A stretch of 64,000 nucleotides of DNA, taken from contig JAGQTY010000014.1 of NCBI GenBank assembly GCA_020438795.1, positions 1-64,000 on the forward strand, in the 5' to 3' direction. A program made the position numbers and the translations under genes. Shown piece by piece: positions 10,895-30,573 of the stretch (position 1 is its first letter; each line of letters opens with the position of its first letter). The notes below the pieces were generated by a model, which was not told where the DNA came from, did not search any database, and was given only the letters and a program-made list of their open reading frames with translations. The DNA is from Actinomycetota bacterium. GTDB lineage: Bacteria; Actinomycetota; Actinomycetes; S36-B12; GCA-2699445.

Positions 10895-11031
10895 ACTGTC
10901 CCCCGGCTCGATTCCAGACAACGAGCCTGGACGATCCCACCTTCCGAGTGTCCACCCTCGGCGGCCGACACCGACACCCTGACACGCTGTGACGATGCAC
11001 ACACCGTGCGATTACCGGTCAGCCGGACCGT

Positions 11032-11559
11032 TCACACCTGGACCAGCGAGGCAAGCACACGGTCATAAGCCTCCGAGTGCCGCACGAGCAGCCGCCCGGC
11101 CCCGGGGAACCGGCGTGACAGCGGCACGGTGGCCGCCACAGAGTCGCTGTCCAGCGCGATGATCCAGTCGAATGCTTCCCCTTGCCGAAGCCGCGCCCAC
11201 GCGTCGGCGGCCGAGGCGAAGGTCCGGGGCCTCAGATATGGATCGAGTTCAGTGGCCGTGCGCAGGCCGAGCTCCCCCACCGCGCGCTGGAGGCGACCGG
11301 GAGGGCCGGGACGTCTCGACTGTCGCCATCGCCGGGCCGAGTTGACCAATGGCCGGCGTCGCTGGGGCCAGGACTGCCGGTCGAACAGATCAGTCACGTT
11401 GTGCACGTTCGGACCCGGCGACCAGACACCTTCGGAGGTGAACCAGTCTCGGTTGGTGGTCAGCACTTGCGTGCGCAAACCAGCATCGAAACACCGCTGT
11501 GCGAAGGTTCGCGCCGGCTCGAGCTTGCGGCGCTGCTGCAGCAGGAGCACATCAGTCAT
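11032..11559 (-). CDS. Hypothetical protein in glycosyltransferase operon
   Basis: The family is not recognised. The 175-residue protein has no signal peptide or membrane segment, and is rich in Arg and Trp. It starts MTDVLLLQQRRK and contains a segment GEAFDWIIALDSD that could be a beta strand followed by an acidic loop, so a glycosyltransferase-like half-fold is possible but unproven. The ATG at 11559 overlaps the stop of the upstream glycosyltransferase by 8 nt, so translation is coupled. It is the last gene of a three-gene minus-strand operon. Confidence 0.6.
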   Translation of the reverse strand: MTDVLLLQQRRKLEPARTFAQRCFDAGLRTQVLTTNRDWFTSEGVWSPGPNVHNVTDLFDRQSWPQRRRPLVNSARRWRQSRRPGPPGRLQRAVGELGLRTATELDPYLRPRTFASAADAWARLRQGEAFDWIIALDSDSVAATVPLSRRFPGAGRLLVRHSEAYDRVLASLVQV

Positions 11560-12775
11560 GGGCCGCAACCAGGCCTTCCTCGTACAGGCGCAGCAGTTGC
11601 TGGGCCACGCTGCCAGGAGCATAGCGTTGCGCCACGATCGTGGCGGCCGTGCTCAGATCGAGTGCAGGGTCATCCTCGAGCTCGGCCACCGCGGCGGACA
11701 CCTGGTCTGCAGTCGGGTCCGGACCCAGCAGCCTGCCTGCCAGGGGGGCGACCTCGGCATCCATGATGTCCCGAGGGCCACCGCTGTCCGCGACGATCAC
11801 CGGCGTTCCCGCTGCGATGGCTTCGGCCGTGACGATCGAGAACGTCTCCAGCCTCGAGAGATGCACCAGCACGTCGGCCTGCCCGATCAGCCGGGAGGTC
11901 GTCTCGGGGTCCAGAGCACCGGTCAACGTGACCCGTTGCGTAAGGCCGAGTTCCTGCGCTCGTCGGGCCACCACCGGCAGTTCCTCCCCAGCCCCCACGA
12001 ACGTCAGCGTCGCATCGCCGGCAGACTCAGCGAACCGGGCGAAGCTCTCCAGGACCAGTGACGGTCGTTTGCCCTCGATGACCGCGCCCACACAGATCCA
12101 GTCGCGGATCGGACGCCCGGAGGCCGACGCGACCGCTGCAGGCGGATTCGCGAGGATGTTGGGAACCACCGAGAGCCGGTCGTGTGCGTCCGGGAAGTCC
12201 GAGAGCAGCTTGTCCCGCAACGCCGAGCTCACGGCGAGCGTCCGGAAGGACCGAGCCAGGGCCTTGCGGTACAGCCGCTTCACGCGGGGACCGAGCTTCT
12301 GACTGCTCAGCATCGCACTGTAATGCTCGGTCACCAGCAGCGGGACATCGCTCTCGAGCAGCTCGGCGGCAGCCCAGCCCGAAAGCATCCCCACATGGGC
12401 GTGTGCAACCTCAACGGGATCGAGCAGTTCCAGGCCCACCTGGGTCGCGATCGCGTGCAGCGTGGCCTGGTCGTACCGGTTGATGTGCTTGGGCCGCGGC
12501 ACGGGCACGCGAGCCAGCGGCACTGCGACATCACCCACGAGGTCGTGGCTCAGCCAGTCACCGCGCCGAGCACGCAGCCAGCGCTGCCAGCGCCCCTGGA
12601 GAGGCACGAACGAACCGTCGGCGTGCAGCCGGTCCTCACGCGTGTGGATCACCTGCACCCGCGCTCCTGCCTCGACGAGGGCGTGGACCTGGCTGCGGAC
12701 GAAGACACCGACGTGGGGTTCGGGCGCACTGGGATACCAGGGTGTGATCACCGTGACTGCTGGAGGTTGACTCAC
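11552..12775 (-). CDS. GT4 family glycosyltransferase
   Basis: A 407-residue GT-B enzyme. The N-terminal domain opens VTVITPWYPSAPEPHVGVFV, the usual phosphate/acceptor side of GT4 proteins. The C-terminal domain has the DPETTSRLIGQADVLVHLS helix and ETFSIVTAEAIAAGTPVIV, where the first Glu matches the donor-binding E-x7-E motif. The GTG at 12775 overlaps the TGA of the upstream gene (GTGA); the frame extends further upstream but only inside that gene. It is the middle gene of a coupled operon, probably for assembly of a surface polysaccharide. Donor and linkage are unknown. Confidence 0.85.
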   Translation of the reverse strand: MSQPPAVTVITPWYPSAPEPHVGVFVRSQVHALVEAGARVQVIHTREDRLHADGSFVPLQGRWQRWLRARRGDWLSHDLVGDVAVPLARVPVPRPKHINRYDQATLHAIATQVGLELLDPVEVAHAHVGMLSGWAAAELLESDVPLLVTEHYSAMLSSQKLGPRVKRLYRKALARSFRTLAVSSALRDKLLSDFPDAHDRLSVVPNILANPPAAVASASGRPIRDWICVGAVIEGKRPSLVLESFARFAESAGDATLTFVGAGEELPVVARRAQELGLTQRVTLTGALDPETTSRLIGQADVLVHLSRLETFSIVTAEAIAAGTPVIVADSGGPRDIMDAEVAPLAGRLLGPDPTADQVSAAVAELEDDPALDLSTAATIVAQRYAPGSVAQQLLRLYEEGLVAAHD

Positions 12776-14076
12776 GATCTCGACTCCAGCCGCTGCGCCC
12801 ACTGCTGTGCGAACGGAAGGACCGCAGACTCCCTGTCGAAGCTGCGGCCGTAGGCTCTGGCCGCCTGACGTTCCGCAGGCGATGCTGAGGCCGCGAGCTG
12901 CGCAGCACGTGCAAAAGCCTCGGCCAGATCGGCGGGGGCCAGTGATTCGGGCTGCACCCACAGGGGATAGTCCGACAGCTCCGCTACAGCGGCCAGCTCC
13001 GGGCTGTGGACCGAGACGATCGGCAGTCCCGTGGCCATGTACTCGTAGACCTTGCCGCCGGTGACGTACCTGCCGCCGGGTGAGGAGAAGACCAGGACAT
13101 CCAGCTCGTCGTACTTCTCATGCACCGCTGTCTTGGGAACGGCTCCGCGGTAGTGCAGGTTCGGGGGCGGGTCGCTCAGCTGGCCTTCCAGCAGGCGTCG
13201 GGTGCTGGCGAAGAATCCAAGGTGCCCGTAGATGTCCAGCGAGGCCCGGGTGCCGGAGTCCGCGAAGGGCCCCGCCATCGCGGCACGCCAGCCGTCGAGC
13301 AGTTCCCGCACGGGGTGAACCTCCGTGAGGGTCCCCACGAAACCGAACCGGATGCCATCATCCGCGGCCCGGGGCACCCGGCCCTCGGGCAGGTGATCAG
13401 CATCGAACCCGTTGCGGATCACGATCATGCGGTCGGCATCCTGCGGGTAGCGCAGCGCATACTCGGCACGCAGCCCGTCGTTGACGTGGATGATGCGTTC
13501 CGCCCCGGCCAGGCTCCATCGCTCAGCGCGCACGGGCAGGCTTCCCGGCGCGAAGAAGTCCTCCTCCGTGAACGAATTGAAGGTCCAGGGGTCGCGGTAG
13601 TCCAGCGCGTACGGGACCCGCAACCGCGTGGCGATCAGGCGCGCAGCCATGAAGGACGCGAACGGGTTGCCCGTTGCGAGCACGGCATCCACTGGTCGCC
13701 CCCGCGCCCGCCGGAGTCCGGCACGGGTCGCGGTGGCGACCCACGACGTGTAACGCTCCTTGAGGGTCCGGGAGATCAGTGTCGAGCGCGCCTTGGTGCG
13801 TAGCGCGGGCACCCAGGTGTCGACGAGACCCAGATCGTCGGGATCAGTGGTGTAGGAATACCGCTGCCAGTCGGGGCGCAGCACATCGACACCGGGAATC
13901 TCCACAGCGGTGGACGGGTCCAGGCCCGCGCTCACCGCCTCGAGATACGGCAGGGGCGCCGAGATCACACTGACCTGCCAGCCCGAGCGGGCGAACGCCG
14001 AGCAGAAGGCCCGGGGACGATGTGCGCCACTGGCCCGTGAAGGCGGGTAGAAGAAGGCCAGATACAGCAGGTGCAT
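12772..14076 (-). CDS. GT4-like glycosyltransferase, first gene of the operon
   Basis: A 434-residue GT-B protein. It starts MHLLYLAFFYPPSRASGAHRP, the classic GT4 N-terminal loop, then has a Rossmann strand with PYALDYRDPW. The donor domain contains VGTLTEVHPVRELLDGW, YDELDVLVFSSPG and TGGKVYEYMATGLPIVSV, as in capsule and O-antigen glycosyltransferases. GGAGGA lies 4 nt before the ATG at 14076; the frame is open far upstream but without this support. A TAGGTT -10 element 35 nt upstream gives a short leader. It is divergent from 14226. Confidence 0.85.
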   Translation of the reverse strand: MHLLYLAFFYPPSRASGAHRPRAFCSAFARSGWQVSVISAPLPYLEAVSAGLDPSTAVEIPGVDVLRPDWQRYSYTTDPDDLGLVDTWVPALRTKARSTLISRTLKERYTSWVATATRAGLRRARGRPVDAVLATGNPFASFMAARLIATRLRVPYALDYRDPWTFNSFTEEDFFAPGSLPVRAERWSLAGAERIIHVNDGLRAEYALRYPQDADRMIVIRNGFDADHLPEGRVPRAADDGIRFGFVGTLTEVHPVRELLDGWRAAMAGPFADSGTRASLDIYGHLGFFASTRRLLEGQLSDPPPNLHYRGAVPKTAVHEKYDELDVLVFSSPGGRYVTGGKVYEYMATGLPIVSVHSPELAAVAELSDYPLWVQPESLAPADLAEAFARAAQLAASASPAERQAARAYGRSFDRESAVLPFAQQWAQRLESRS

Positions 14077-14110
14077 CCCGTCCTCCGAACCCCACAAACG
14101 CCCAGATGAC

Positions 14111-14116
14111 AACCTA
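14111..14116 (-). promoter_or_regulatory. -10 element of the 14076-11032 glycosyltransferase operon
   Basis: TAGGTT on the minus strand would start a leader of about 28 nt that contains GGAGGA before the ATG at 14076. No convincing -35 is seen. Confidence 0.45.
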
Positions 14117-14212
14117 TCAGGGCGGCACCGCGGCATCGGCCCACGCCGCGGGCTCGGCAGCCGACGCGGGCCGCTCCGGCGAGCGGAACGTGTGGCGGTC
14201 GATGTCTGACCG

Positions 14213-14228
14213 TAGAATGCTCCTCGTG
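14213..14228 (+). promoter_or_regulatory. Leaderless -10 element for gene 14226
   Basis: TAGAAT (14213-14218), 7 nt, then GTG. This favours the GTG over in-frame ATGs at 14202 and 14217, of which the second overlaps the -10 box. Confidence 0.55.
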
Positions 14229-14834
14229 ACAGCTGCGGACCGGGTCCATCTCGGACTGATCTCGTGGGCCTGTCCCCCGCTCGACGATCCGATCGCCGAA
14301 TACGCCCGAGCGGTCGTCGCCACCCTGAACGCGAGCGGGGCGGAGCTGAGCCTGTTCCGCTGCAGCACCATCTCCTACGAGATGATCGCAGCCGACTGCG
14401 CCGGGACCGGTTGTGGCGGCGGCCGGGAACTGGAGATTCCCTTTCACACGAACCTGGCCAACCCACTGGTGAACTCGTGGGGAACGACACAGGCGACTGC
14501 ACCGAAACGCTGGCAACGTCGCCTGAGGAGGAATCAGGAGCTGCGCGGTGGGCTGGCATGGTCCAAGCGCGTGCTGGCTGAGCTGCAGCTCCTCCATCTC
14601 TCTGAGCCCCTGGACACGGTCATCGCAGTCTCGCAGCCCCGGCTGAACGTCATCGCAGCAGCGAGCTTCTCCCGCCTCACGGGTGTCCCGTTCGTGGAGT
14701 GCCAGGGCCCAGCACTGCAAGAACACCTGGCATACATGACCGACGCACCGGACATTGAGACCGGCGCCCGACCGGCAGCGGTGGTCGGTTCGGCCGCGGA
14801 CGTCGGCGCCATGATTGGCGAGGTGCTCCCATGA
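14226..14834 (+). CDS. Hypothetical protein coupled to a glycosyltransferase-like gene
   Basis: The family is not recognised. The protein (202 residues from GTG 14226) opens with VHLGLISWACPPLDDPIAEY, reminiscent of the first strand and loop of GT-B glycosyltransferases, and has a second Rossmann-like strand LDTVIAVSQPRLNVIAAAS. There is no signal peptide. Its stop overlaps the next start (ATGA), so the two proteins are made together and may form one GT-B-like unit split over two chains, or partners. In-frame ATGs at 14202 and 14217 are alternative starts. Confidence 0.6.
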   Translation: MTAADRVHLGLISWACPPLDDPIAEYARAVVATLNASGAELSLFRCSTISYEMIAADCAGTGCGGGRELEIPFHTNLANPLVNSWGTTQATAPKRWQRRLRRNQELRGGLAWSKRVLAELQLLHLSEPLDTVIAVSQPRLNVIAAASFSRLTGVPFVECQGPALQEHLAYMTDAPDIETGARPAAVVGSAADVGAMIGEVLP

Positions 14835-16534
14835 TCATCGTGGTCGGCCCCGGGGATCCGGATCTGAGCGTCCTCGGCGATCACGTCGTGGTGCGAAAGA
14901 CCGGCAAGGGGCAATACACGATAGTGCGCGGCCACAGCCAGGCTCTGCGGGGCCCACTTCGGGCTGTGGTGTCGCAGTCCCTGCGCCTCGGGGAACGGGT
15001 GCTCGTCATTGCGACAGACGCACCGAGCGCGCGCAGACTCGCCCCGCTGACCAATGAGTACCCGGAAGTGCCGGTTCTGTCCGGTGTCCATCAGGCCGCC
15101 GCCATCCTGCGACGCTGCGACGGTCGGCAGCTGCCGACCGTCGCCGAGGTGCTGTCGATCCTGGGACGATCGACGTTCGTGCCGGACACCGCGGTGTCCG
15201 ATCACTGCCGCCGGGTGCAGCTGATCGATGAACGACGCGTGGACAGGATCCGCGCCGAGCTGTCGCCCGCCAGTGATGTCGCCATCGCCTGGACCGAGGA
15301 CCGACCGGCAATGCTCGCTCTCTCGCACCGTCCGGTCCTGCAACTGGCCCGGCCGCGCCGTTCCTGGCGGGGCGGCGGGCGCCCGGACCCCTCGCAGCAG
15401 CAACAGGCGCGCGACGTCGTCAGCGAGCTCGAGGCTGCCTTCGAGCGGCCGACCGGGAACGAGATCGGCGCGGCCATGAGCAGGGGGTTGCTCATCGGCT
15501 CCCGGAACACGGCGGGCCAGGCACACGAATGGGCGCGGGCGGCCCGCGAACAAGGCCTCGAGGCGCTCTCGTTGCAGTACCTCCGCCCCGACCCCACCCA
15601 CGTCTTCGAAGCCGACATCACGACACACGAATTCGCCGCATCGCTGCCAAGACGGGTTCGTGTCGCAGCAAGCACGCTGTCCGGCAGTTGCGCAGTGCTA
15701 ATGGAGTCTCTTCAGAATCCCTTCCTCCTGCCCGACTACGACGGCGGAGCGGACGCCGGCCTTGCGCAGCTGAGAGCGTTTCGCAGATCGGACTTCCCTG
15801 CAGGGGTGGTGTTCCACGGCAGCGACGTGCGAAACCCGTCCCGTTTCGCCGCCGAGCACGCGAACAGCCCCTTCGAGGGCTGGCTGGCACCCGAGCTGCA
15901 GGAGTCACTGGAGCACAAGACGCAGAGAATGACCGCGTTGCTGCCCGAGATCACCGAACCGAAGTTCGTCACCACGCTGGACCTGATGGACCACGTGCCG
16001 GACGCGTCCTGGCTGCCCCAGGTGGTCCGGCCCGAGTTCTTCACCGCGAAGGCGCGGCCAAGCGCCGGAGCGCCCGTCGTGCTGCACGCCCCCTCAGCCG
16101 GCGGCACCAAGGGCAGTGCCGTCATCGACCCAGCGCTGACCCGGCTGGCCGATTCCGGCGTCATCCGCTACGTCCGGTGTGAGGGCGTGCCCACGGCCAT
16201 GATGCCTCGGCTGGTCGCCGCCGCCGACATCGTCGTCGACCAGATCGGGCTCTCGCTGATCAGCGTCGCTGCGATCGAGGGGATGGCAGCGGGCAAGGCG
16301 GTCGTGACCAGGTTCGATCCGGTGATCGCCGCGCGATACCCGGCCGAGGTACCGGTGCTGCCGGCCGACCCGCACACGCTGGGCGACGTCGTCGAGGCGC
16401 TGGCAAGCGACCCTGCCAGGACTGCGGAACTGGGGGCGGCGGGTGCCGCCTACGCGCGGGAGTTCCATGACGGGCGACTCTCATCGCACATTCTGGCGCA
16501 GACCTTCAGTCTTCCTCGGCGCTCCCTTGCCTGA
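14831..16534 (+). CDS. GT-B-fold glycosyltransferase-like protein
   Basis: A 567-residue protein. The N-terminal third (MIIVVGPGDPDLSVLGDHVVV onward) is not recognised and may be a Rossmann-like domain. From about residue 220 it resembles a GT-B enzyme: GLLIGSRNTAGQAHEWARA, VFHGSDVRNP, then a donor domain with VLHAPSAGGTKGSAVIDPAL, MPRLVAAADIVVDQIG and SVAAIEGMAAGKAVVTRF. The usual E-x7-E is partly altered. It is translationally coupled to 14226 by a 4-nt overlap. Its last 29 nt overlap the 3' end of the convergent glycosyltransferase gene at 16506. It is part of the surface-glycan locus; the activity is unproven. Confidence 0.7.
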   Translation: MIIVVGPGDPDLSVLGDHVVVRKTGKGQYTIVRGHSQALRGPLRAVVSQSLRLGERVLVIATDAPSARRLAPLTNEYPEVPVLSGVHQAAAILRRCDGRQLPTVAEVLSILGRSTFVPDTAVSDHCRRVQLIDERRVDRIRAELSPASDVAIAWTEDRPAMLALSHRPVLQLARPRRSWRGGGRPDPSQQQQARDVVSELEAAFERPTGNEIGAAMSRGLLIGSRNTAGQAHEWARAAREQGLEALSLQYLRPDPTHVFEADITTHEFAASLPRRVRVAASTLSGSCAVLMESLQNPFLLPDYDGGADAGLAQLRAFRRSDFPAGVVFHGSDVRNPSRFAAEHANSPFEGWLAPELQESLEHKTQRMTALLPEITEPKFVTTLDLMDHVPDASWLPQVVRPEFFTAKARPSAGAPVVLHAPSAGGTKGSAVIDPALTRLADSGVIRYVRCEGVPTAMMPRLVAAADIVVDQIGLSLISVAAIEGMAAGKAVVTRFDPVIAARYPAEVPVLPADPHTLGDVVEALASDPARTAELGAAGAAYAREFHDGRLSSHILAQTFSLPRRSLA

Positions 16535-17981
16535 TACCGAGGTCCTGATAGACGCCCATGATCGTGTCGGTTTGCGACTCCCAGGTCCATCGGTCCAGAT
16601 CGGCGCGGGTCAGGGCCGCCCGGAACTCCTGCTCACCAGCGAGGACCCGCCGCACCGCCGACGCGAAGTCCTCACTGCTCCCGGCGACAAAGGCCTCACC
16701 GAGTCCCAGCTCGCTGACCACCGACGAGAGGTACTCGACATCGCTGACCACCATCGGCAGCCCGGCGTGGGCGTAGTCGAAGAACTTGTTGGGCAGAGCG
16801 ATCTCATGGTTCGGCAGATGCACCATGGGGTGCACAGCAGCTGAGGCCGTGCGAAGGTGCTGAACAATGACTTGTCGGGGGACGTAGTCGATGACATGCA
16901 GCCTCTCGCCGACCCCGGATTCCTCGGCCGCTTCGAGCAGGAACTGTCTCGCCTCGGGCTGCGGTGGTGCGATGACCGCGAGATGCACGTCCGGCAGATG
17001 CGCCAGTCCTGCGATCGCAGTGTCGAGGCCCCGGCGCAGCGAGATCGCGCCCGAATAGACCAGTAGCGGCACCTCGGGTGCCAGCGCGCAGTCGGAGCGA
17101 ACGTCACGATCGAACTCCGGATGAGTGCGCAGCGCCCGCGCCTCGGGACAGTTGAGCACAACCTCCGGGGTCGCCATGAGGCCATGCGTACGGACGAGTA
17201 GTTCGGCCAGAGGTTGTGAGACCGTGAGCACTGCGTCGGCCGAGCCGATGTGCGTCGCCTCATAGACACATCTGCCCAGGTGCGTCGGCGTGCGGCCCTG
17301 CAGCCCGGGGACGTACTCGTGCGCGTCGTAGATGACCCGGACCTCGTACGGCTGGCGACGCGCGTGACGGACCGCTACCCCCAGGGCGACGTAATCGTGT
17401 GCGTGGATGATGCCGGGGTCGAAGTCCGCCAGAACCGGCGCCATGGCCTTCTCATACTCCAGCAGGTTGGGGTCCAGCTGCGGCCACAGGGCCTCGCCTC
17501 GCGAGAGGGTCTCTGCACGCCGTTGCGGCGGCTGCCCCAGCCAGTTGCGTGCACGGCGGAAGAGGGCCTCGTCATTTCGTTCGGTCAGGCGCTGGCGAAC
17601 CCCATGGATCCGCTCATCGAGCAACAGACTGCTGCGCCGAGCAAGCGTTCGCAGCCGCCGGTCCTGCCTGTCCGGAGCTCGGCGGTCGGTCAGCGTCCGG
17701 CGACGCCTGGCCAGCTCTCGCCGGCGCCCCCGGGCCTCTCCCCGCGTCCGGTAGGACAACCGGCCCGGCACCGGCCGAGATCCCAGCTCCCAGTCGGCGA
17801 CGTCCACCAGCGCCACCCGGAAGTCCCCTATACCCTCCGTCGGGGTCGTCGGGTCGGTCTGCACACCCAAGGCCAGGACGTCGTAGCCCTGCTCCGATAT
17901 GAACTGCGCGGTCTTGACCACTCTCGCATCGCCCGCCACCGCGGTGTCCACGAGCATGGCCACGCGATTCTGCCTCGCCAT
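16506..17981 (-). CDS. GT4 family glycosyltransferase
   Basis: A 491-residue GT-B protein starting RVAMLVDTAVAGDARVVKTA, typical of a capsular glycosyltransferase N-domain. A long, Arg-rich, probably helical insertion follows (about 80-160). The middle contains IIHAHDYVALGVAV and VIYDAHEY, and the donor domain contains VYSGAISLRRGLDTAI and ALPNKFFDYAHAGLPMVV. GGAG lies 4 nt before the ATG at 17981, and a TAGCCT -10 element lies 34 nt upstream. It is divergent from the SGNH gene at 18124. The Arg-rich insertion is unusual and might bind polyanionic glycan or membrane. Confidence 0.85.
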   Translation of the reverse strand: MARQNRVAMLVDTAVAGDARVVKTAQFISEQGYDVLALGVQTDPTTPTEGIGDFRVALVDVADWELGSRPVPGRLSYRTRGEARGRRRELARRRRTLTDRRAPDRQDRRLRTLARRSSLLLDERIHGVRQRLTERNDEALFRRARNWLGQPPQRRAETLSRGEALWPQLDPNLLEYEKAMAPVLADFDPGIIHAHDYVALGVAVRHARRQPYEVRVIYDAHEYVPGLQGRTPTHLGRCVYEATHIGSADAVLTVSQPLAELLVRTHGLMATPEVVLNCPEARALRTHPEFDRDVRSDCALAPEVPLLVYSGAISLRRGLDTAIAGLAHLPDVHLAVIAPPQPEARQFLLEAAEESGVGERLHVIDYVPRQVIVQHLRTASAAVHPMVHLPNHEIALPNKFFDYAHAGLPMVVSDVEYLSSVVSELGLGEAFVAGSSEDFASAVRRVLAGEQEFRAALTRADLDRWTWESQTDTIMGVYQDLGIRQGSAEED

Positions 17982-18123: not shown

Positions 18124-19260
18124 GTGACCGGGTCGCGGCGTACGACATCGGCGCTGGGCGCGGCCCTCGCCTTCGTGCTGACGCTGGGCCTGTTCGTTGC
18201 CGGACCCCCGCCCGCGTCCGCCTGCCACGCCCCCATCCCCGACACTTCGGCCCGGCGCTGCTGGCCCGTGAAGGGCACCCCGGACCAGCCAACAGTCGTC
18301 CTGCTGGGCGATTCCCATGCCGGACGATTGGTGTATGCGGTCGCCGAGACCGCACGGGAGCATGGCTTGCGGCTGATGCATCTGAGCAAGAGTGGCTGCC
18401 CGGCGCCCCTGATCTCGGTCTCGACCTTCAGGGGCGAGCAGTACCCGCAGTGCGACAGCTGGCGGGAGTCCGCACTTCGCCTCATCGAGTCTGTACGCCC
18501 CGCGGTCGTGGTGACCCACTCCTACTACGAGTACGGGACCTATGACCTGCTGTTCGACGAATCGGGACAGCAGGTGCCCGATGCACAGGAGCCGCAAGCC
18601 TGGGAGCGCGGATTCTCGGCGACTCTGGATCGAATCGCCGGGTCCGGTGCAACGGCCCTGGTGGTCCGAGGCATCCCCACACTGAGGCGAGACCTCCGAA
18701 CGTGCCTCCAGCGGGCGCGGGACCGGGATTCCTGTGGATGGGACCTCGACGAGGCGATTTCGCAGTCCGCCCTGGACATCTGGCGCGCTGAGTCGACGCA
18801 GGCCCAGGATCGCGGGTGGCCGACCCTGGACCTGACCAGCAGGTTCTGCACCAAGGGCTTCTGCTCGCCCTACGCGGGCAGGAGGATGCCACGCTTCCTC
18901 GAGGACGGCTCGCACATGACTCAGGAATTCGCGACCACCCTGTACGTGCCCCTCGCCCGCAGGCTGGCCGAAGTCCTGCCACTGGCCCCTGCCCCGGTCC
19001 GCAGACTGCGCGTGTCCAGCACCCACAGACGGACAGTGGTGCGCTGGCAGCGACCCAAGGTCCACGGATCAGCCAGGATCACCGGCTACGAGGTTCTGCT
19101 CGCGCCGGGGCGAAAGCGCCGCGGCGCTCCGGCGCGCTGCCAGACGGCCACCACTCGATGCAGGATCGCCGAGCCCCTGCACGGGAAGTACCGGATCCGG
19201 GTCGTGGCTCGGTCGACCGCGGGCACCTCCGTTCCTGCCACGGCGCAGCGCCGCCTATGA
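18124..19260 (+). CDS. Secreted stand-alone SGNH domain protein with FnIII-like tail
   Basis: The 378-residue protein has a signal peptide (GAALAFVLTLGLFVAGPPPASA), then an SGNH hydrolase domain of the type fused to membrane acyltransferase-3 proteins. The block I serine is in VVLLGDSHAG (about S64), SGCPAP follows, and the C-terminal catalytic Asp/His is in EDGSHMT. Several paired cysteines fit an extracytoplasmic fold. The last 85 residues form a basic FnIII-like module beginning APVRRLRVSS. There is no membrane acyltransferase domain, so acyl groups would have to come from a partner such as the acyltransferase at 20621, or the protein may be a deacylase. It is convergent with a paralogue at 19276. 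Confidence 0.82.
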   Translation: MTGSRRTTSALGAALAFVLTLGLFVAGPPPASACHAPIPDTSARRCWPVKGTPDQPTVVLLGDSHAGRLVYAVAETAREHGLRLMHLSKSGCPAPLISVSTFRGEQYPQCDSWRESALRLIESVRPAVVVTHSYYEYGTYDLLFDESGQQVPDAQEPQAWERGFSATLDRIAGSGATALVVRGIPTLRRDLRTCLQRARDRDSCGWDLDEAISQSALDIWRAESTQAQDRGWPTLDLTSRFCTKGFCSPYAGRRMPRFLEDGSHMTQEFATTLYVPLARRLAEVLPLAPAPVRRLRVSSTHRRTVVRWQRPKVHGSARITGYEVLLAPGRKRRGAPARCQTATTRCRIAEPLHGKYRIRVVARSTAGTSVPATAQRRL

Positions 19261-19275
19261 GGGCCGATCAGCTGA

Positions 19276-20469
19276 TCAGCGACCCGTGCGGGATCGGGCA
19301 GGCGGGGAGACTCCCACCTCGCTGACGGCTGTGACGCTGATCTTGTACGTGGCCCGAGCCGGCACCTTTCCCGAACGGCACGACAACGCGCGGCCTGAGC
19401 ATGAGATGGTCTGCGCCCCACGCTTGCGCCACTTTCCGGTGGGGCGCAGTGTCGTCCGGTAGCTCACGGCACTGGCGCTGCCCGGGTGTCCGCGCTTCCA
19501 CCTGACCAGCCAGCCGGCGCGGGAGTACTGTGCCTTGACCCGCTCCGGGCTGCTCGGCGGCAGCGCGAGTGTGCCGGCCAGGGACTGCGACAGCCTTCGC
19601 CACAGCGAGGCGGAGAACCGCGGGGTGAAGTGGTCGGTGTCGGCATAGCGGGGCGTCCCGCCGGGGTCCACTGGGGAGCAGAAGGACTTTTGGCATACCG
19701 CTGTAGTCAGCTCCAGTTCCTGCGTGAACGGCCTGCCTCGGCTGGCGCCCGCTTCGATGGACCAGATGGCACGGTGCGTCGGGTCGAGCGCCCGGCCCTG
19801 GGACCAGCCACAGGTCTTCCGGCGAGCGCCCCTCTCGCGAGCCAGGCACCGGGGCAGGCTCTCCGAGAACAGCGGCGTGTCCCGCACCAGCACCATTCCG
19901 ATGCCAGCCAGTGATTGCAGCGTCTGCTCGAACCCGGCACGCCAGGTCTCGCGATAGTCATCACCCACGTGGGATCCGGACTCCTTGGTCAGCAGCAGGT
20001 CCTTGTAGTGGGAGGACGATGCCAGCACCACTGAGTCGGGCTGGAGTTTCTGGATCAGGTCCAGCGCCGACTCCCGCCAGGAGAAGCATTGCGGGTGAGG
20101 ATCACCCGCCCCCGTCGTCGTGTGTACGACCGGAGCCGGGCAACCGGACTTGGTCAGCTGGAGCAGCCGCAGATCGTGTTTGGCGGCCACGCGCGCCAGG
20201 CCGGGGCTCAGATGGTTGGCATGCGAATCCCCGAAAAGGACCACCAACGGTCGCGAGGCCTTGCCCCGGCGCACCCAGCAGACCCTCGCCCGCGTGACCG
20301 GAACCCCCTCATGGCAGCTCTGTGCCGCAAGAGCGACGGTCGTTCCCCTGACCTGCGGGCCCTCCTGGGCCAGGCCCACCGGGATCACTGCGAACAGCAT
20401 CGCAACCACCATGCTGGCAGTCAGGACAACGACTCTGCGCGGCGATCCCACCGCTGACCTCCGGAACAT
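19276..20469 (-). CDS. Secreted stand-alone SGNH domain protein, paralogue of 18124
   Basis: The 397-residue protein has a signal peptide (VVVLTASMVVAMLFAVIPVGLA). Its SGNH domain has Ser in VVLFGDSHAN (about S82), the SGCPAP segment and Asp/His in DTDHFTP. Its C-terminal module, starting SSPERVKAQYSRAGWLVRW, is basic and FnIII-like. Architecture and length match 18124, with moderate sequence identity, so the two arose by duplication and now face each other tail to tail 15 bp apart. The ATG at 20469 follows a TAGGCT -10 box by 6 nt; an in-frame GTG at 20475 is less likely. It probably works on the exported polysaccharide; the direction of the reaction is unknown. Confidence 0.82.
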   Translation of the reverse strand: MFRRSAVGSPRRVVVLTASMVVAMLFAVIPVGLAQEGPQVRGTTVALAAQSCHEGVPVTRARVCWVRRGKASRPLVVLFGDSHANHLSPGLARVAAKHDLRLLQLTKSGCPAPVVHTTTGAGDPHPQCFSWRESALDLIQKLQPDSVVLASSSHYKDLLLTKESGSHVGDDYRETWRAGFEQTLQSLAGIGMVLVRDTPLFSESLPRCLARERGARRKTCGWSQGRALDPTHRAIWSIEAGASRGRPFTQELELTTAVCQKSFCSPVDPGGTPRYADTDHFTPRFSASLWRRLSQSLAGTLALPPSSPERVKAQYSRAGWLVRWKRGHPGSASAVSYRTTLRPTGKWRKRGAQTISCSGRALSCRSGKVPARATYKISVTAVSEVGVSPPARSRTGR

Positions 20470-20481
20470 CCGCACAGCCTA
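20467..20481 (-). promoter_or_regulatory. Leaderless -10 element for SGNH gene 20469
   Basis: TAGGCT on the minus strand (20476-20481), 6 nt, then ATG. Confidence 0.55.
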
Positions 20482-20620
20482 CCTCAACCGGGGACGCGGT
20501 CTGGGGTCAAAAGCTGGCCGCAGTGCGGGGCAGCCCCGGCGGACCCCGCGTACAGTGGTAGCGCGATCAGGTGGCCTGGCATGGGCCAGAACGTCACTGT
20601 CCCAGACGCAGGGGGTCGAG

Positions 20621-22678
20621 TTGCCTGAAGTGATTGCCGCCAGGGGGCCAACCACGCCCTCGGCACCGGCCTCGTCACTGCGCTACCGTCCCGATGTCGA
20701 GGGACTGCGGGCGCTCGCGGTCGGCGGAGTGCTGCTCTTCCACGCGGGCTGGCCCTTCGTGCTCGGTGGCTACGTCGGGGTCGACGTCTTCTTCGTGATC
20801 TCCGGTTTCCTGATGACCGGCCTGATCCTGAAGGAGCGCACCAGGACCGGCCGTTTCAGCTTCGGCGCCTTCTACGCCCGACGGGTGCGCCGGATCCTGC
20901 CGGCGGCCACGGTCGTGCTTGCGGTGAGCGCCGGACTCTCCCTCTGGCTGCTGCCCTGGGTGGAGTGGAGCAGGACCGGCTGGGACATCGGCTCGGCAGG
21001 TCTGTTCGTGTCCAACTTCCGGTTCGCGTTCGAAGCGACCGACTACCTGAACGCGGAACTGGGCGCATCTCCCGTCCTCAACTACTGGTCGCTGAGCGTC
21101 GAGGAGCAGTTCTACCTCGTCTGGCCCCTGTTGCTCGTGGCGGCGCTGGCCCTCGGGCGCGTACGCATCGCGACCGGGCTACTGGGGCTCACGGCAGTAG
21201 CGTCCTTCCTGCTGAGTCTTCAGTGGACGGCCACTGCACAGCCGTATGCCTTCTTCATGATGCCTGCGAGGGCATGGGAGTTCGCTCTTGGCGGTCTGGT
21301 CGCCATCGCGCTGGCCCGTCGACGACTGATCCCCGCAAGAGCCGCCCTCTGGCTGGGCTGGCTCGGGGCAGGACTGATCGTGGCCACGATGCTGCTGCTG
21401 ACTCGCGCAACCCTGTTTCCGGGTTGGGTGGTCCTGCTTCCCGTGATGGGGACCGCAGCCATCATCTGGTCCGGAGCCTCCAGCGCAGGCAGAGGTTCCG
21501 TGGGGAGCGTGCTCTCCACGGGTCCGATGCGAGCGGTCGGACGTGTCTCCTACTCCTGGTATCTGTGGCATTTCCCCCTGCTCGTCATACTCCCCATCGG
21601 CCTGGACCTCGAGCCATCGGTCTGGACGGGAACCGTCATCGTGGCGCTGGCGTGGTTGCCGGCATATGCGACCTATCGTCTGGTGGAGACACCGATCCGC
21701 ACAGCAGGAGGAGCCATGCGAACAGGCCGAGCGGCTGCGATCATCCTGGCAGGGTGCGTGGGCCTCGCCATTGCAGTCGCCGCAGCACTGCTCCTGTGGC
21801 CCCGCCCCGAACTGACACTGCAACCCGAGCAGGCACGTGGTGCCACCGCAGCCACCGTACCCGCGCCGGCTGCCTCACTGACTCCGGGCGTGAGCGAAGC
21901 ACGCGACGACCTGCCGGCGATCTACGATGACGGCTGCCATGGTGATGTCACCGACACCCGGGTGTCCGACTGCACCTATGGAGTCAAGAACTCCGGCACA
22001 TCGGTGGTGCTGCTCGGTGATTCCCACGCGGCTCAGTGGCAACCACCGCTCGCAGCCCTGGCCGAAGAACGTGGCTGGACGCTGCATTCCTGGACGAAGT
22101 CGTCGTGCGCTCCGGGCTCGGGATCGTCGCTCCTGCCCGACCCGTGGTCCCGGCCCTACGAGGAATGCGACCAGTGGCTGAATGACGTCGTCAAGGAGCT
22201 CAAGGACCTGCGCCCGGCTCTGGTCATCGCGTCGGGGTGGCAACCGACACAGCTGCTCATGGACGGCCAGCAGGCGACCGGGCGGGCAGCTGGCGAGCAG
22301 TACCGACAGAGCCTCTCGAAGGACGTCGCAGCTATACAGGACATCGGCGTCCCGCTGGTGTGGCTGCAGGACACACCGTGGCAGGGCAAGGACGTCCCCA
22401 CGTGCCTGTCCAAGCGCAACAACGCCGAGGCGTGCAATGCGAGGCTCGCAGACGTCGAGGCTTCACCCGAGGCCGCCGCGGTGATGGAAAGCAGCGGTGT
22501 CCCCACGATCGACCTCACGGGAGCCATCTGCGGAGCCGAGGAGTGTGAGGCGATCCGCGGCAACAGGATCGTCTGGCGCGATGAGCACCACCTCACCGCC
22601 AGCTACGCCGAAGCACTCCTGCCTCTGCTGGCGGCGGACCTCTCTGAGACGGGACTCCTGCCCGCTTCGACACCCTGA
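20621..22678 (+). CDS. Membrane acyltransferase-3 fused to SGNH domain (OafA/YrhL type)
   Basis: A 685-residue polysaccharide O-acyltransferase. The N-terminal acyltransferase-3 domain (about 25-370) has the family motif RYRPDVEGLRALAV, a membrane histidine in LLFHAGWPF, then GGYVGVDVFFVISGFLMTG and about ten hydrophobic segments. A Pro/Ala linker leads to a periplasm-side SGNH domain with Ser in LLGDSHAAQW (about S468) and DEHHLT near the end. The TTG at 20621 is chosen because AGGGGGT precedes it at suitable spacing; a GTG at 20630 is an alternative. The frame is open further upstream without protein character. It very likely acylates the polysaccharide made by the neighbouring glycosyltransferases. 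Confidence 0.9.
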   Translation: MPEVIAARGPTTPSAPASSLRYRPDVEGLRALAVGGVLLFHAGWPFVLGGYVGVDVFFVISGFLMTGLILKERTRTGRFSFGAFYARRVRRILPAATVVLAVSAGLSLWLLPWVEWSRTGWDIGSAGLFVSNFRFAFEATDYLNAELGASPVLNYWSLSVEEQFYLVWPLLLVAALALGRVRIATGLLGLTAVASFLLSLQWTATAQPYAFFMMPARAWEFALGGLVAIALARRRLIPARAALWLGWLGAGLIVATMLLLTRATLFPGWVVLLPVMGTAAIIWSGASSAGRGSVGSVLSTGPMRAVGRVSYSWYLWHFPLLVILPIGLDLEPSVWTGTVIVALAWLPAYATYRLVETPIRTAGGAMRTGRAAAIILAGCVGLAIAVAAALLLWPRPELTLQPEQARGATAATVPAPAASLTPGVSEARDDLPAIYDDGCHGDVTDTRVSDCTYGVKNSGTSVVLLGDSHAAQWQPPLAALAEERGWTLHSWTKSSCAPGSGSSLLPDPWSRPYEECDQWLNDVVKELKDLRPALVIASGWQPTQLLMDGQQATGRAAGEQYRQSLSKDVAAIQDIGVPLVWLQDTPWQGKDVPTCLSKRNNAEACNARLADVEASPEAAAVMESSGVPTIDLTGAICGAEECEAIRGNRIVWRDEHHLTASYAEALLPLLAADLSETGLLPASTP

Positions 22679-24315: not shown

Positions 24316-26919
24316 TCAGCGCAGGTCACCCTCTGTGAGCGCGGCGGTCTCAGCCGGCAGCGCCACCAGGCCCATCTCCGCCGCCGAGGCCAGTCCGGTG
24401 TGCCTCGGCACGATCCGCACCGTGTAGCCGAACGGACCCGAGCGATCCAGCGGCACCCTACCCGTGAACAGGTAACGACTGCCCCCGAAATCCTCTGCCA
24501 CGTCGAGATCACTGTGATGCTCATCGGCCAGGAGGTCGCCGGCGTCCACCCTCCCGTGGATCGCCTGCACGGCCACATCCGGCGGCGCCAGTCCGCCGAG
24601 GTTCGCATAGACCCTGACCTCGATCGTGTTGCCGACCAGCGGCTCGTCACCGATCCCATCAGTCTCGATGTGTTCGATGGTCACGTTCGGCCAGGCAGCC
24701 TGCACCTTGGCCTTCCACTGGGCGAGGTCCTTGGCCAGCGCATAGTCGTCGGCTCCGACCTCACGACCGGCGACAGCGGCGGGCCTGTACAGCTTCTGGA
24801 CGTAGTCGTGGAGCATCCGGCTGGCCAGTACCTTGGGGCCGGTGAACTCGAGGGTCTTGCGCGTCATCTCGAGCCAGCGCAACGGCAGGCCGTCGTCGTC
24901 GCGGTCGTAGAAGCACGCGGCGACCGAGTTCGCCATCAGGTCGTAGAGCGCCGCTGCCTCGAGTTCGTCCCGCCGGTTCGGGTCCTCGATGCCGTCGGCG
25001 GTCGGGATCGCCCAGCCGTTGTCACCGTCGTACCACTCGTCCCACCAGCCGTCGAGCACGCTGAGGTTGAGCGCTCCGTTCAGGGCGGCCTTCATCCCTG
25101 AGGTGCCACAGGCCTCCAGTGGCCGCAGTGGGTTGTTCAGCCAGACGTCACAGCCCGGATAGAGGTGCTCAGCCAGAGCGATGTCGTAGTCCGGCAGGAA
25201 AATGATGCGGTGACGGACCTCCGGGTCATCGGCGAACCGCACCAGTTCCTGGATGAGTCGCTTGCCCCCGTCGTCCGCGGGGTGCGCCTTGCCCGCGATC
25301 ACCATCTGAATCGGGCGCTCCGCGTCGAGAAGCAGCTCCTTGAGACGATCGGGCTCGCGCAGCATCAGGGTCAGCCGCTTGTAGGAGGGCACGCGCCGGG
25401 CGAAGCCGATGGTCAGGATGTCCGGGTCGAGGATGTCGTCGATCCAGCCGAGTTCAGCCGGGCTGGCGCCCCGTTGCAGCCACGACTCCCGGACGCGCTG
25501 GCGAGCATCGGCGACCAGGGTCTCACGCATCTGCCGCTTGACCGACCAGATCTCCTCATTGCTGATGTTGTGGATCGACTCCCAGCCGCGGGCCTCCTCG
25601 ACCAGGGTCCCCTCGCTGGCCCGCGAGGCCAGGTCCAGCACCCGGTAGTCGACCCAAGTGGGCGCATGCACCCCGTTGGTGATCGACGTGATCGGCACCT
25701 CGTCCGCGTCGAAGCCGGGCCACAGCCCGGCGAACATGCGACGACTGACGCGCCCGTGCAACTTGCTGACACCGTTGGCGCGTTGCGCCAGCCGGAGCCC
25801 CATGACCGCCATGTTGAAGACATTGTGGTCGCCGCCCTCATACGTCTCCTCACCCAGGGCGACGATACGGTCCAGGGGCACCCCCGGCAGCGCAGCGTCG
25901 CCGCCGAAGTGGGCGTAGATGATGTCCTTGCTGAACCGGTCGATCCCCGCCGGCACCGGGGTGTGGGTCGTGAACACCGTGCCTGCTCGGACATCCTGCA
26001 GCGCCTCGTCGAACGACAGCCCCGGACCGTCCATCAGTTCCCTGATGCGTTCGAGGCCGAGGAAGCCGGCGTGACCCTCGTTGGTGTGGAACACCTCCGG
26101 CGCCGGGAAGCCGGAGATCCTGCTGAACGCACGAATCGCGCGCACTCCGCCGATGCCCAGCACCATCTCCTGGAGCAGCCGGTGCTCGGATCCGCCGCCG
26201 TAGAGGCGGTCGGTCACGTTCCGGTCTGCGGGCGTGTTCTCCTCGACATCGCAGTCCAGCAGCAGCAGCGGCACCCGGCCGACATCGGCACGCCAGACCC
26301 GCGCACGCAGCGTGCGCTCCCCCGGCAGGTCGATGGAGACGCGCACGGCGTCGCCGTTGTCCTCGCGCAGCAGCGTCAGGGGCATGTTGTCGGGATCCAG
26401 CACAGGGTAGCGTTCCTGCTGCCAGGCCTCGAGCGACAGGGACTGCTTGAAGTAGCCGGACCGGTAGAACAGTCCGACACCCACGATCGGGATGCCGAGG
26501 TCGGAGGCCGCCTTCAGATGATCGCCAGCCAGGATCCCCAGGCCACCCGAGTACTGGGGCAGTGCAGCAGTGACCCCGAACTCGGGACTGAAGTAGCCGA
26601 TCGAGGCCGGCTTGTCGCCCTGAAGCGACTGGTACCAGCGATCGGAGGTGAGATACGCCTGGAGTTCGGCGTTGCGCGCCACCGCCCGGTCCACGAACTC
26701 CGGATCGTCGGCGAGCTCGTCGAGCCGCGCGCGGGGGACCTCCCCGAGCAACCGCATCGGATCGTGGTCGACCGCGTCCCAGGTCTGGGGATCGATGGAG
26801 GCGAACAGCTCCTGGGTCTCGTGGTCCCAGCACCACTTGAGGTTGTGGGCCAGTTCGGAGAGAACCTGAAGCCGCTCGGGCAGGACAACACGGACTGTGA
26901 ACCGTCTGAATGCTTTCAC
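24316..26919 (-). CDS. glgP: Alpha-glucan phosphorylase GlgP (actinobacterial type)
   Basis: This GT35 enzyme (867 residues) releases glucose-1-phosphate from alpha-1,4-glucan ends using PLP. It belongs to the longer alpha-glucan phosphorylase branch common in Actinobacteria. The N-terminal domain is followed by IGYFSPEFGV and GGLGILAGDHLKAASDLG; the PLP lysine is in TSGMKAALNGALN (about K610), next to LNVLDGWWDEW-like sequence. The GTG at 26919 lies 6 nt after a TAGCGT -10 box. It is divergent from glgE, so glycogen breakdown and synthesis share a 216-bp control region. The enzyme needs GlgX to pass branch points. Confidence 0.95.
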   Translation of the reverse strand: MKAFRRFTVRVVLPERLQVLSELAHNLKWCWDHETQELFASIDPQTWDAVDHDPMRLLGEVPRARLDELADDPEFVDRAVARNAELQAYLTSDRWYQSLQGDKPASIGYFSPEFGVTAALPQYSGGLGILAGDHLKAASDLGIPIVGVGLFYRSGYFKQSLSLEAWQQERYPVLDPDNMPLTLLREDNGDAVRVSIDLPGERTLRARVWRADVGRVPLLLLDCDVEENTPADRNVTDRLYGGGSEHRLLQEMVLGIGGVRAIRAFSRISGFPAPEVFHTNEGHAGFLGLERIRELMDGPGLSFDEALQDVRAGTVFTTHTPVPAGIDRFSKDIIYAHFGGDAALPGVPLDRIVALGEETYEGGDHNVFNMAVMGLRLAQRANGVSKLHGRVSRRMFAGLWPGFDADEVPITSITNGVHAPTWVDYRVLDLASRASEGTLVEEARGWESIHNISNEEIWSVKRQMRETLVADARQRVRESWLQRGASPAELGWIDDILDPDILTIGFARRVPSYKRLTLMLREPDRLKELLLDAERPIQMVIAGKAHPADDGGKRLIQELVRFADDPEVRHRIIFLPDYDIALAEHLYPGCDVWLNNPLRPLEACGTSGMKAALNGALNLSVLDGWWDEWYDGDNGWAIPTADGIEDPNRRDELEAAALYDLMANSVAACFYDRDDDGLPLRWLEMTRKTLEFTGPKVLASRMLHDYVQKLYRPAAVAGREVGADDYALAKDLAQWKAKVQAAWPNVTIEHIETDGIGDEPLVGNTIEVRVYANLGGLAPPDVAVQAIHGRVDAGDLLADEHHSDLDVAEDFGGSRYLFTGRVPLDRSGPFGYTVRIVPRHTGLASAAEMGLVALPAETAALTEGDLR

Positions 26920-26931
26920 AGGACAACGCTA
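26917..26931 (-). promoter_or_regulatory. Leaderless -10 element for glgP
   Basis: TAGCGT on the minus strand (26926-26931), 6 nt, then GTG. Confidence 0.6.
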
Positions 26932-27122
26932 GCGACACTTGCCGCTGATGCAGCAGTCAGTATCGTGAAACGGTCCGGATTGCTCCGATTGCTTGAACCT
27001 GCACCCCGACGGGAGCAGAGAACCTGCCCGTCCGCGAGGGCAGTCGCGACCGCCCCGGACCGCCACCACCGGTTGGAGTCTCCGCATGAGTGATCCAGCC
27101 GGTAACCGTGCCCGAGTGCCAC

Positions 27123-27138
27123 TATGGTGCTGACTGTG
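27123..27138 (+). promoter_or_regulatory. Leaderless -10 element for glgE
   Basis: TATGGT (27123-27128), 7 nt, then GTG at 27136. This argues against the ATG at 27124, which lies within the -10 box. Confidence 0.55.
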
Positions 27139-29133: not shown

Positions 29134-29243
29134 CAACCGGGCTATGGGGCAGGTGCCGGTACACCCATTCGGGTGAATGCCGCCGGGAATGCGTTGGGTT
29201 CACCCAGCACAGCTCGTCTCCACTGTGAGACCGGAGGTGCGTC

Positions 29244-30506
29244 ATGGGGATCCGACGAGCAGGAATCATGGGGATCGGAGTCGCTGCGCTTGCGGCCACG
29301 GCACTGGTGGCGCCGACGGCGCTGGCGGGCGAGAACGGGGGGATCGCCTGGGTGCAGATCGATGGCGACGCCGACCTGTTCATCTTCGACCCCCGCACGG
29401 GGACGGGAGGCACGGTGCAGCGCCTCGGCCGCGATTTCAGTCCCGACTGGTCGCCGGTGGCTCACCGGATCGCATACGAATCCGACGCCACGGGCGCCGG
29501 TTTCGACTTCAAGGAGATCTACGTCCTCGATGGCAATGGCGTGGTCAATCAGCTGACCAATGACCGCCGCGCCGACGAGGACCCTGAGTTCAGTCCCGAC
29601 GGCGAGCTGCTCGCCTTCACCGACCACGACCTGACCCGCAAGCCACAGATCAGCGTGATGACCGAAGAGGGCACCGGCTTGCGGACCCTCACCTCACAAG
29701 GGACCAATCGCTACCCCAACTGGTCACCGGACGGTAGCAGGATCGTGTTCGTCAGCACACGCCTGGGCGGTTCGGCCATCTACACCATGCGGAGCGACGG
29801 GACCGACCAGAGGGTCCTGTACTCCTCGAACGAGCCTGTCACTGAGCCGAGCTACTCCCCTGACGGCCGCTGGATCCTCTTCAGTGAGGAGGATGCGGCC
29901 GGACAACGCGATCTCTTCAGGATCGATGCCACAGCTCCGGCTGCCAGGACGCGGTTGACCGACACAGCGGGCCTGCACGAGCGGGAGGCCACGTACTCCC
30001 CGGACGGATCGCAACTGCTGTTCTCCGCCAGCGACGGGCTCGGCAACAGCCACATCTTCACCAGCGCGACCGACGGCACGGCGCGGCGCATGATCTCCGC
30101 ACCAGGCTCCTACGCGGTCCAGCCGGACTGGCAGGACGTCGCTGCGTTCAACGCAGGTCCGGTGATCACCATGAAGGGTCGCCCGAAGGCGGGTAGCAAG
30201 TACCCGGCCCGGAAGGTGAAGCGGCTGAGAGGCTCGGTGACGGATGTCAGCGGTGTGGCGATCGTGAAGCTGGGGATGCGCTCGGTCGGGCGTGAGTGCC
30301 GGCACCTGAAGCGCAACGGCGGGCTCTCCAAGCCGCGCACCAGTTGCCGGATGCGGATGTACACCGCGGCGGAGCAACCCGATGCCTCCTCGTTCGACGT
30401 CAGGATCCGCAAGAGGCTACCCTCGGGCCGCTACCGGGTGAGGGTCACCGCCACAGACCTCGGCGGGAATGCCGCGACAGAGAACCTCCGCTTCCGGATC
30501 CGCTGA
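29244..30506 (+). CDS. Secreted TolB-like beta-propeller protein
   Basis: A 420-residue exported protein. The signal peptide (IGVAALAATALVAPTALAG) is followed by at least five PD40/WD40-like repeats with the phrase SPDG: FSPDGELLAFTD, WSPDGSRIVFVS, YSPDGRWILFSEE and YSPDGSQLLFSAS. The last about 110 residues form a separate, basic Ig-like domain ending TENLRFRIR. No catalytic site is seen; such propellers usually bind proteins or glycans. GGAGGT lies 5 nt before the ATG. It starts 110 bp after glgE on the same strand and could be cotranscribed, but a role in glycogen metabolism is unlikely for a secreted protein. Confidence 0.85.
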   Translation: MGIRRAGIMGIGVAALAATALVAPTALAGENGGIAWVQIDGDADLFIFDPRTGTGGTVQRLGRDFSPDWSPVAHRIAYESDATGAGFDFKEIYVLDGNGVVNQLTNDRRADEDPEFSPDGELLAFTDHDLTRKPQISVMTEEGTGLRTLTSQGTNRYPNWSPDGSRIVFVSTRLGGSAIYTMRSDGTDQRVLYSSNEPVTEPSYSPDGRWILFSEEDAAGQRDLFRIDATAPAARTRLTDTAGLHEREATYSPDGSQLLFSASDGLGNSHIFTSATDGTARRMISAPGSYAVQPDWQDVAAFNAGPVITMKGRPKAGSKYPARKVKRLRGSVTDVSGVAIVKLGMRSVGRECRHLKRNGGLSKPRTSCRMRMYTAAEQPDASSFDVRIRKRLPSGRYRVRVTATDLGGNAATENLRFRIR

Positions 30507-30573
30507 TCCAAAGGGTCGTGTTCCACCGCCTGACGAGTGGCAACAGTGGTCACCTGCCCACGATCATGGGGCA

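Follow-up and report, generated by a model that had tools for sequence, protein, structure and literature searches.

Stand-alone, FN3-tailed SGNH proteins beside an AT3-SGNH acyltransferase in an actinobacterial genome

The SGNH-AT3 family is defined by an appended AT3 domain (PMC9487903), and the Pfam description of its PF19040 model reads "SGNH domain (fused to AT3 domains)". A 64,000-nucleotide stretch of DNA from an Actinomycetota bacterium (GTDB lineage Actinomycetes; S36-B12; GCA-2699445; GenBank assembly GCA_020438795.1, contig JAGQTY010000014.1, positions 1 to 64,000), hereafter the window, encodes two exported-looking PF19040 proteins, SGNH1 and SGNH2, that stand free of any AT3 domain next to a fused AT3-SGNH acyltransferase. 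In the order to which this bacterium belongs, free SGNH genes are found close to AT3 genes at a frequency above chance. The free proteins are putative stand-alone second-step O-acyltransferases working in trans with AT3 proteins, a reading adopted here tentatively and favoured over the alternative that they are editing esterases. Its computed support comprises family membership, conserved catalytic residues and cysteines, a PatB/OafB-like fold, the AT3 association in the order and the failure to find an MBOAT protein. PF19040, AT3-SGNH enzymes and two-protein MBOAT/SGNH systems are already known; what appears new is the stand-alone members tied to AT3 genes, none of which was found in the open-access literature, a search that left subscription journals mostly uncovered.

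The window is contig C55 of the source genome (G000), an assembly of 3.58 Mb in 212 contigs that is 88% complete. SGNH1 (E = 4.3e-27, 95.8 bits) and SGNH2 (E = 2e-30, 106.8 bits) both pass the curated PF19040 cut-off of 27, while the neighbouring fused protein matches PF01757 (AT3; E = 5.9e-27) and PF19040 (E = 1.2e-31) in one frame. PF01757 and profile searches found no AT3 domain in frame with SGNH1, SGNH2 or their four paralogues elsewhere in the genome. The fused enzyme carries the AT3 motifs R-X10-H, RxxR and FFxISG, judged by eye against published definitions (PMC7448272). A first-pass annotation, made from the sequence alone, had placed two free SGNH genes of the AT3-fused class beside the fused gene and described their products as detached, exported and bearing a binding tail. 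Open reading frames (ORFs) and Pfam searches bear this description out, and the N-termini of both proteins resemble signal peptides by eye. The tail-to-tail arrangement is likewise confirmed: SGNH1 and SGNH2 are convergent. SGNH2 and the fused gene are head-to-head.

Catalytic residues are conserved throughout the free copies of this genome. Gly62-Asp63-Ser64, Asp261 and His264 (SGNH1 numbering), which supply the Ser-Asp-His triad in GDS and DxxH motifs, are kept in all six, as are eight domain cysteines, two of which are equated with the OafA linker disulfide. The annotation named Ser64 correctly; its Ser82 for SGNH2 holds only from an ATG two codons in, and the residue is Ser84 from the GTG at 20475. 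Cys34 adjoins the SGNH1 signal and is probably not a lipobox cysteine, because the same cysteine stands at the start of the domain in 94% of 134 fused rows; a lipoprotein assignment was therefore dropped. Several free proteins of the order also share block III and V motifs (SSWxFHQ-like and KDDNH) that were unseen in the five fused rows examined alongside.

The tail of each protein is a single, strongly basic domain, FN3 in SGNH1 and FN3-like in SGNH2. That of SGNH1 passes the Pfam fn3 cut-off of 25 (PF00041; E = 6.6e-06, 26.7 bits); that of SGNH2 falls under it (E = 0.026, 15.2 bits) yet aligns with the other tails, among which two cysteines are invariant. The last 95 residues hold 22 (SGNH1) or 20 (SGNH2) lysines and arginines against two aspartates and glutamates, with an isoelectric point of about 12.

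An AlphaFold2 model of SGNH1 (predicted local distance difference test score 88.8, predicted template modelling score 0.86) points to the fold of known SGNH acyltransferases. In VIA-align, the best match is Campylobacter jejuni PatB (8tlb; Z 19.1, root-mean-square deviation (rmsd) 2.7 over 195 residues, 14% identity), followed by 8gr2 (Z 19.0), which is Cj0610c deposited under the title GDSL-family esterase and which we take to be PatB, then by OafB (6se1; Z 18.6) and Neisseria gonorrhoeae PatB (Z 17.4-17.5). All remaining rows, esterases included, have Z of at most 15.9, with the peptidoglycan O-acetylesterase 4k3u at 13.9. Foldseek also ranks 6se1 first, but with an rmsd of 9.5. Searched against solved chains, the family profile finds the OafB SGNH domain best (6SE1; E = 9.4e-7, profile positions 14-236 of 237) and 4k3u at E = 0.059 over positions 72-145 only, whereas a phmmer search with SGNH1 alone returned 12 matches, all to the FN3 part. 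No PatB/DUF459 Pfam model matched the free proteins at E up to 1; their matches were PF19040, fn3 and, for SGNH1, Tissue_fac. Among NCBIfam models, SucT (NF058601) comes nearest, at 247.3 bits for the fused protein, 48.4 for SGNH2 and 35 for SGNH1, all far under the equivalog cut-off of 1275; the free proteins match its C-terminal part.

SGNH1 and SGNH2 are members of a larger set. The source genome holds seven PF19040 domains, and only the gene at 20621 has AT3 in the same frame. The other six are free and FN3-tailed, at four loci: the window pair, a tandem pair on contig C127 with an AT3-only gene 2.7 and 3.9 kb away, and singles on C190 and C146, the last adjoining a protein with an FN3 domain. 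The annotation was thus right about two free paralogues in the window and understated their number. SGNH1 groups with the C127 pair (support 99), SGNH2 with C190 and C146 (support 96), and all six together (support 99). They are paralogues of some age. An origin by recent duplication of the fused gene next door was dropped, since both proteins group with their own paralogues and not with the fused domain. Treatment of the convergent pair as a unit was also abandoned: the two proteins share 38% identity, and for each of them a gene on a different contig is the closer relative. Seven AT3 genes exceed the cut-off in this genome, one of them with PF19040 in frame. At a further locus (L022, G000:C132:8855-12625), a single frame encodes an AMP-binding domain followed by AT3, a fusion that hints at a dedicated acyl donor.

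Intact tailed copies were found in the source genome only. The family profile matches 38 of the 296 genomes in a phylum sample that includes the source genome, with at most six candidates per genome scored, and no uninterrupted match outside the source genome extends beyond position 309 of 399, so that the tail is included in none of them. Among the eight genomes of its family searched (its own included), a related tailed copy outside the source genome was found in G006 alone and is decayed; the other matches outside the source genome are confined to the FN3 part. The G006 copy, from a sister genus, is a C-terminal remnant of an FN3-tailed SGNH gene (L188, G006:C6:107177-107731).

Untailed free proteins are more widespread. 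PF19040 exceeds its cut-off in 51 of 86 genomes of the order (own included), and intact free proteins number at least 19 in 11 of the 86, six of them in the source genome. The other 13 have at most 22 residues behind the SGNH domain and so lack a tail. The figure of 19 is a lower bound because rows were dropped as contig-end pieces (G339:C371, G338:C274 and G357:C79) or for other defects (G343:C104 without block V, G343:C140 with a GDSVP motif, G034 below cut-off), or were left out of the count (G373:C18, G343:C146, G337:C5, G339:C307, G359:C270 and short G344 matches). One 9-kb contig carries a tandem pair of untailed free SGNH proteins (L058, G017:C72:4437-6231). At G343:C104 (L228, 8339-9316), an SGNH duplicate without AT3 and block V lies immediately upstream of, and in the same orientation as, a fused gene and looks decayed. 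Beyond the order, other actinobacteria and one Chloroflexi record also contain free PF19040 proteins, with starts that resemble signal peptides or lipoboxes by eye. Those at L190 9070-10251, L193 7890-9014 and L157 have lipobox-like starts and Thr/Ser-rich linkers, again by eye, and form a separate clade (support 99).

The first phylogeny drew on 169 distinct SGNH domains, 133 with AT3 in frame and 36 without. This tree of 165 rows, which leaves out the decayed L179 and short domains and counts as fused four rows (L069, L131, L123 and L116) at a contig edge or with AT3 outside the matched frame, needs nine changes between the free and fused states. A more careful tree of 85 rows combined the rows of the order with every other free row and 25 fused rows picked at random, minus five long-branch rows. 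Here the 19 free proteins of the order lie on the same side of a single branch, with one change, support of 42/0 and recovery in 36% of 200 bootstrap trees. For the 17 order rows tested, a single clade is not rejected (approximately unbiased p = 0.90), and the constrained tree scores higher. On these trees, the free proteins of the order are possibly one old lineage.

The association with AT3 genes rests on PF01757 searches, used for distances because a profile with the fused enzyme as its seed overlooked genes that encode AT3 alone, that on C127 among them. Nine of the 19 intact free proteins have an AT3 gene within 5 kb. Collapsed to independent loci, 4 of 11 lie within 5 kb of AT3 against 0.27 expected (P ~1e-4, with groups chosen after seeing the data and AT3 counts rounded); without the C127 pair, the count is 3 of 10 (P = 1.5e-3). 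An earlier version gave 5 of 13 (P = 1.2e-5), from which two G343 loci, one near AT3 and one not, were then removed. Gene order recurs as well. The head-to-head order of free and fused genes in the window is also seen in G013, G336 and G338, all of one other genus; in G024 and G036, of a further genus, the free gene precedes the fused gene with a 4-bp stop/start overlap (ATGA); and in G048, outside the order, a fused gene is followed by a free gene on the same strand. The annotation's view that free SGNH genes accompany AT3 genes thus stands for the order, and falls short in the source genome itself, where two of four loci have no AT3 on the contig. Its prediction that free SGNH genes would not occur in a genome without any AT3 gene also agrees with the data: AT3 is present in 22 of 22 genomes searched, including all 11 of the order with intact free copies, but this is weak evidence because 10 of 14 control genomes have AT3 too.

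An MBOAT protein is the other potential donor. PF03062 has no match in G000, and none was found in nine of the 11 order genomes with intact free SGNH, G000 among them. An MBOAT donor in this genome was therefore provisionally dropped, and a PatB-like transferase there would need an AT3 donor, unless the missing 12% of the assembly hides an MBOAT gene.

Comparison with described systems places the free proteins between several precedents. PatA/PatB resembles them in having a stand-alone extracytoplasmic SGNH protein, a common fold (Z 17.4-19.1, for a fold that is superfamily-wide) and, as proposed here, a membrane acyl donor; the donor there is an MBOAT protein, PatB belongs to the DUF459/PatB sequence family (PMC9487903) rather than PF19040, and the FN3 tail is found here. 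SucT, the succinyltransferase of mycobacterial arabinogalactan and lipoarabinomannan, succinylates mycobacterial arabinan (PMC10503756) and is one fused protein. OafA and OafB share the triad (PMC7448272), and OafB is the best solved sequence relative, but they are fused O-antigen acetyltransferases of Gram-negative bacteria, and of the two groups only the free proteins have an FN3 tail. Ape1-type esterases share with the free proteins a gene position beside transferase genes, with a lower structural match and a weak, partial profile match. As for the family definition, SGNH1 and SGNH2 match PF19040 and lack the appended AT3 domain that the fused enzyme has. A functional precedent for AT3 feeding a soluble SGNH protein in trans is a laboratory pairing in Escherichia coli, in which the AT3-only WecH was able to stand in for PatA as the partner of soluble PatB (PMC9558356); the window would hold a natural gene pair instead.

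In the putative transferase pathway, an AT3 membrane domain would charge a tyrosine on the membrane's outer face with an acyl group taken from acyl-CoA, as is known for OatA, where the SGNH serine then takes over (PMC12148441). The free SGNH protein would accept the acyl group on Ser64 (SGNH1) or Ser84 (SGNH2) and transfer it to a hydroxyl group on a glycan of the wall or the cell surface. The basic FN3 tail might hold the enzyme on an anionic envelope polymer, beyond the reach of a membrane-tethered SGNH domain. Candidate donors are the fused enzyme next door and any one of the genome's AT3 proteins that lack PF19040. A broader version, in which these genes form a natural two-protein AT3 system, equivalent to PatA/PatB, that hands acyl groups in trans to diffusible exported transferases, six of them with wall-holding FN3 tails, so that a few AT3 proteins serve several acceptor-specific enzymes, is possible though doubtful.

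Several observations weigh against a transferase role. The adjacent AT3 protein already has its own SGNH domain and needs no partner. C190 and C146, which are 114 and 173 kb long, yielded no AT3 gene, and none lies within 5 kb of 10 of the order's 19 intact free proteins, although some sit on short contigs (G017:C72, 9 kb; G337:C208, 3.9 kb). G024 and G036, the genomes with overlapping genes, each encode one MBOAT protein. The structural matches are evidence for family and not for reaction because the fused class has the same fold, and FN3 tails are common on secreted bacterial hydrolases. The active site of the six copies has also shifted: Trp69, which is tryptophan in all 25 other free rows and in 104 of the 134 fused rows, is lost, as is the arginine before Asp261 (arginine in 98 of 134 fused rows). 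Gly91 of block II is present in all six, where the profile alignment was read as placing Asn459 of OafB, and glycine at this position is typical of most SGNH hydrolases (PMC12148441).

In the nearest rival reading, the free proteins are editing esterases that remove acyl groups added by the AT3-SGNH enzyme, in the way that Ape1 counteracts PatA and PatB, and a single locus would tune glycan acylation both up and down. This is a serious alternative, judged less probable than the transferase reading. An opposite activity would be non-redundant beside an AT3 protein that already includes an SGNH domain; the genes for PatA, PatB and Ape1, a de-O-acetylase, are described in one operon (PMC12148441); and opposing acyltransferase and esterase activities within one protein were proposed for the class in 2010 (PMC2824669). 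The copies without AT3 on their contigs and the losses at Trp69 and before Asp261 fit it too, as does Gly91, for which the neighbouring fused enzyme has serine; but 53 of 134 fused rows share the glycine, so Gly91 does not decide between transferase and esterase, and the block II residue was dropped as a discriminator, being mixed in both groups. Against the esterase reading stand the better structural matches to PatB and OafB than to 4k3u, and the absence of a GxND block III from this genome's free copies, a block likewise reported absent from OafA and OafB (PMC7448272). OatA, OafA and OafB are stated not to be acetylesterases (PMC9487903), a point that is not clean because isolated domains show esterase activity in vitro (PMC9558356, PMC7448272). 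Isolated OafA and OafB SGNH domains hydrolyse p-nitrophenyl acetate (PMC7448272), so an esterase assay alone cannot separate the two readings. Peptide mimics have served in work on the SGNH parts of both types of pathway (PMC12148441).

Two further explanations carry less weight. The free proteins might be scavenging or accessory hydrolases acting on outside glycans or another non-AT3 substrate, with the AT3 neighbourhood incidental. Half of the four loci lack AT3 on the contig, and the FN3-tail profile matches elsewhere in the genome and in eight of eight family genomes searched, yet this remains improbable given that the AT3 association recurs in two other genera and two gene orders and that family and fold are acyltransferase-like. 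That the free genes are non-functional, decaying leftovers of fused genes is very improbable. The decayed tailed copy in the sister genus and the G343 duplicate without block V fit such decay, but all six copies here are intact, with catalytic residues, eight cysteines, a signal-like N-terminus and a tail, and the order's free copies group together on the best trees. The annotation had offered diffusible transacylases and editing esterases as its two proposals; both are retained, although as framed they were incomplete on the pair as a unit and on the orphan loci.

The table lists the features of the locus. The annotation's neighbouring glycosyltransferases are confirmed for three of the four left-hand ORFs tested, which pass glycosyltransferase Pfam cut-offs; the fourth (14831-16534) is glycosyltransferase-like, falls under all of them and has a weak match to NCBIfam MSMEG_0565. 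By eye, 20 kb at the two AT3-less loci showed no GT4 gene.

Table. Features of the SGNH locus, in window coordinates.
Feature	Coordinates	Strand	Basis
GT4-type glycosyltransferase	11552..12961	-	Pfam
GT4-type glycosyltransferase	12772..14559	-	Pfam
GT4-type glycosyltransferase, divergent from SGNH1	16506..17981	-	Pfam
SGNH1, free SGNH with C-terminal FN3, 378 aa, exported-looking	18124..19260	+	ORF, Pfam, AlphaFold2 model
SGNH1 PF19040 SGNH domain; Ser64, Asp261, His264; eight conserved Cys	18253..18936	+	
SGNH1 FN3 tail, basic	18967..19257	+	Pfam fn3, tail alignment, charge count
SGNH2, free SGNH with FN3-like C-terminal tail, 399 aa, exported-looking	19276..20475	-	ORF, Pfam
SGNH2 FN3-like tail, basic	19279..19575	-	Tail alignment; Pfam fn3 under cut-off
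SGNH2 PF19040 SGNH domain	19603..20289	-	Profile match
Intergenic stretch between SGNH2 and fused gene, divergent, 145 bp	20476..20620	.	
AT3-SGNH fused acyltransferase	20621..22678	+	Pfam; nearest NCBIfam model SucT, 247 bits vs equivalog cut-off 1275
AT3 (PF01757) domain, fused enzyme	20693..21655	+	Profile match
PF19040 SGNH domain, fused enzyme	21935..22633	+	Profile match

On either side of the glycosyltransferase/SGNH cluster, at 5062-9379 and 24316-35025, lie genes that by eye appear to belong to glycogen and maltosyl metabolism (glycogen synthase, debranching, phosphorylase, GlgE and branching types). A second AT3 protein of 668 aa without PF19040 is encoded at 57249-59255; its C-terminal third has no Pfam match and shows GES and DGVH motifs that look OatA-type-SGNH-like by eye. 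Searches of mobile elements gave little for the free protein: a plasmid tblastn with SGNH1 returned 48 records, none with one place covering 80% of SGNH1. A phage tblastn with the fused protein returned 70 records, and three of the five listed are annotated as O-antigen acetylase.

Tail-like C-termini were noted on other proteins as well. Pfam identifies two subtilases in the window, one (9383-11002) with a basic tail that looks beta-rich by eye and one (53042-54436) with a weak FN3-tail profile match (E = 3.7e-4). Exported proteins of this bacterial family may have in common a basic beta domain at the C-terminus that retains them in the wall. Near the C127 SGNH pair lie two exported-looking, repeat-like proteins (L052 2389-4158 and 4275-6518; by eye) whose C-termini appear very basic and contain cysteine.

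The free SGNH proteins bear on the question of whether AT3 proteins use partner SGNH proteins. If they are esterases, their role would be to edit what AT3 proteins produce. Either way, stand-alone proteins, some of whose genes overlap an AT3 gene by 4 bp in an operon or diverge from one head-to-head, offer material with which the separate halves of such a system could be tested.

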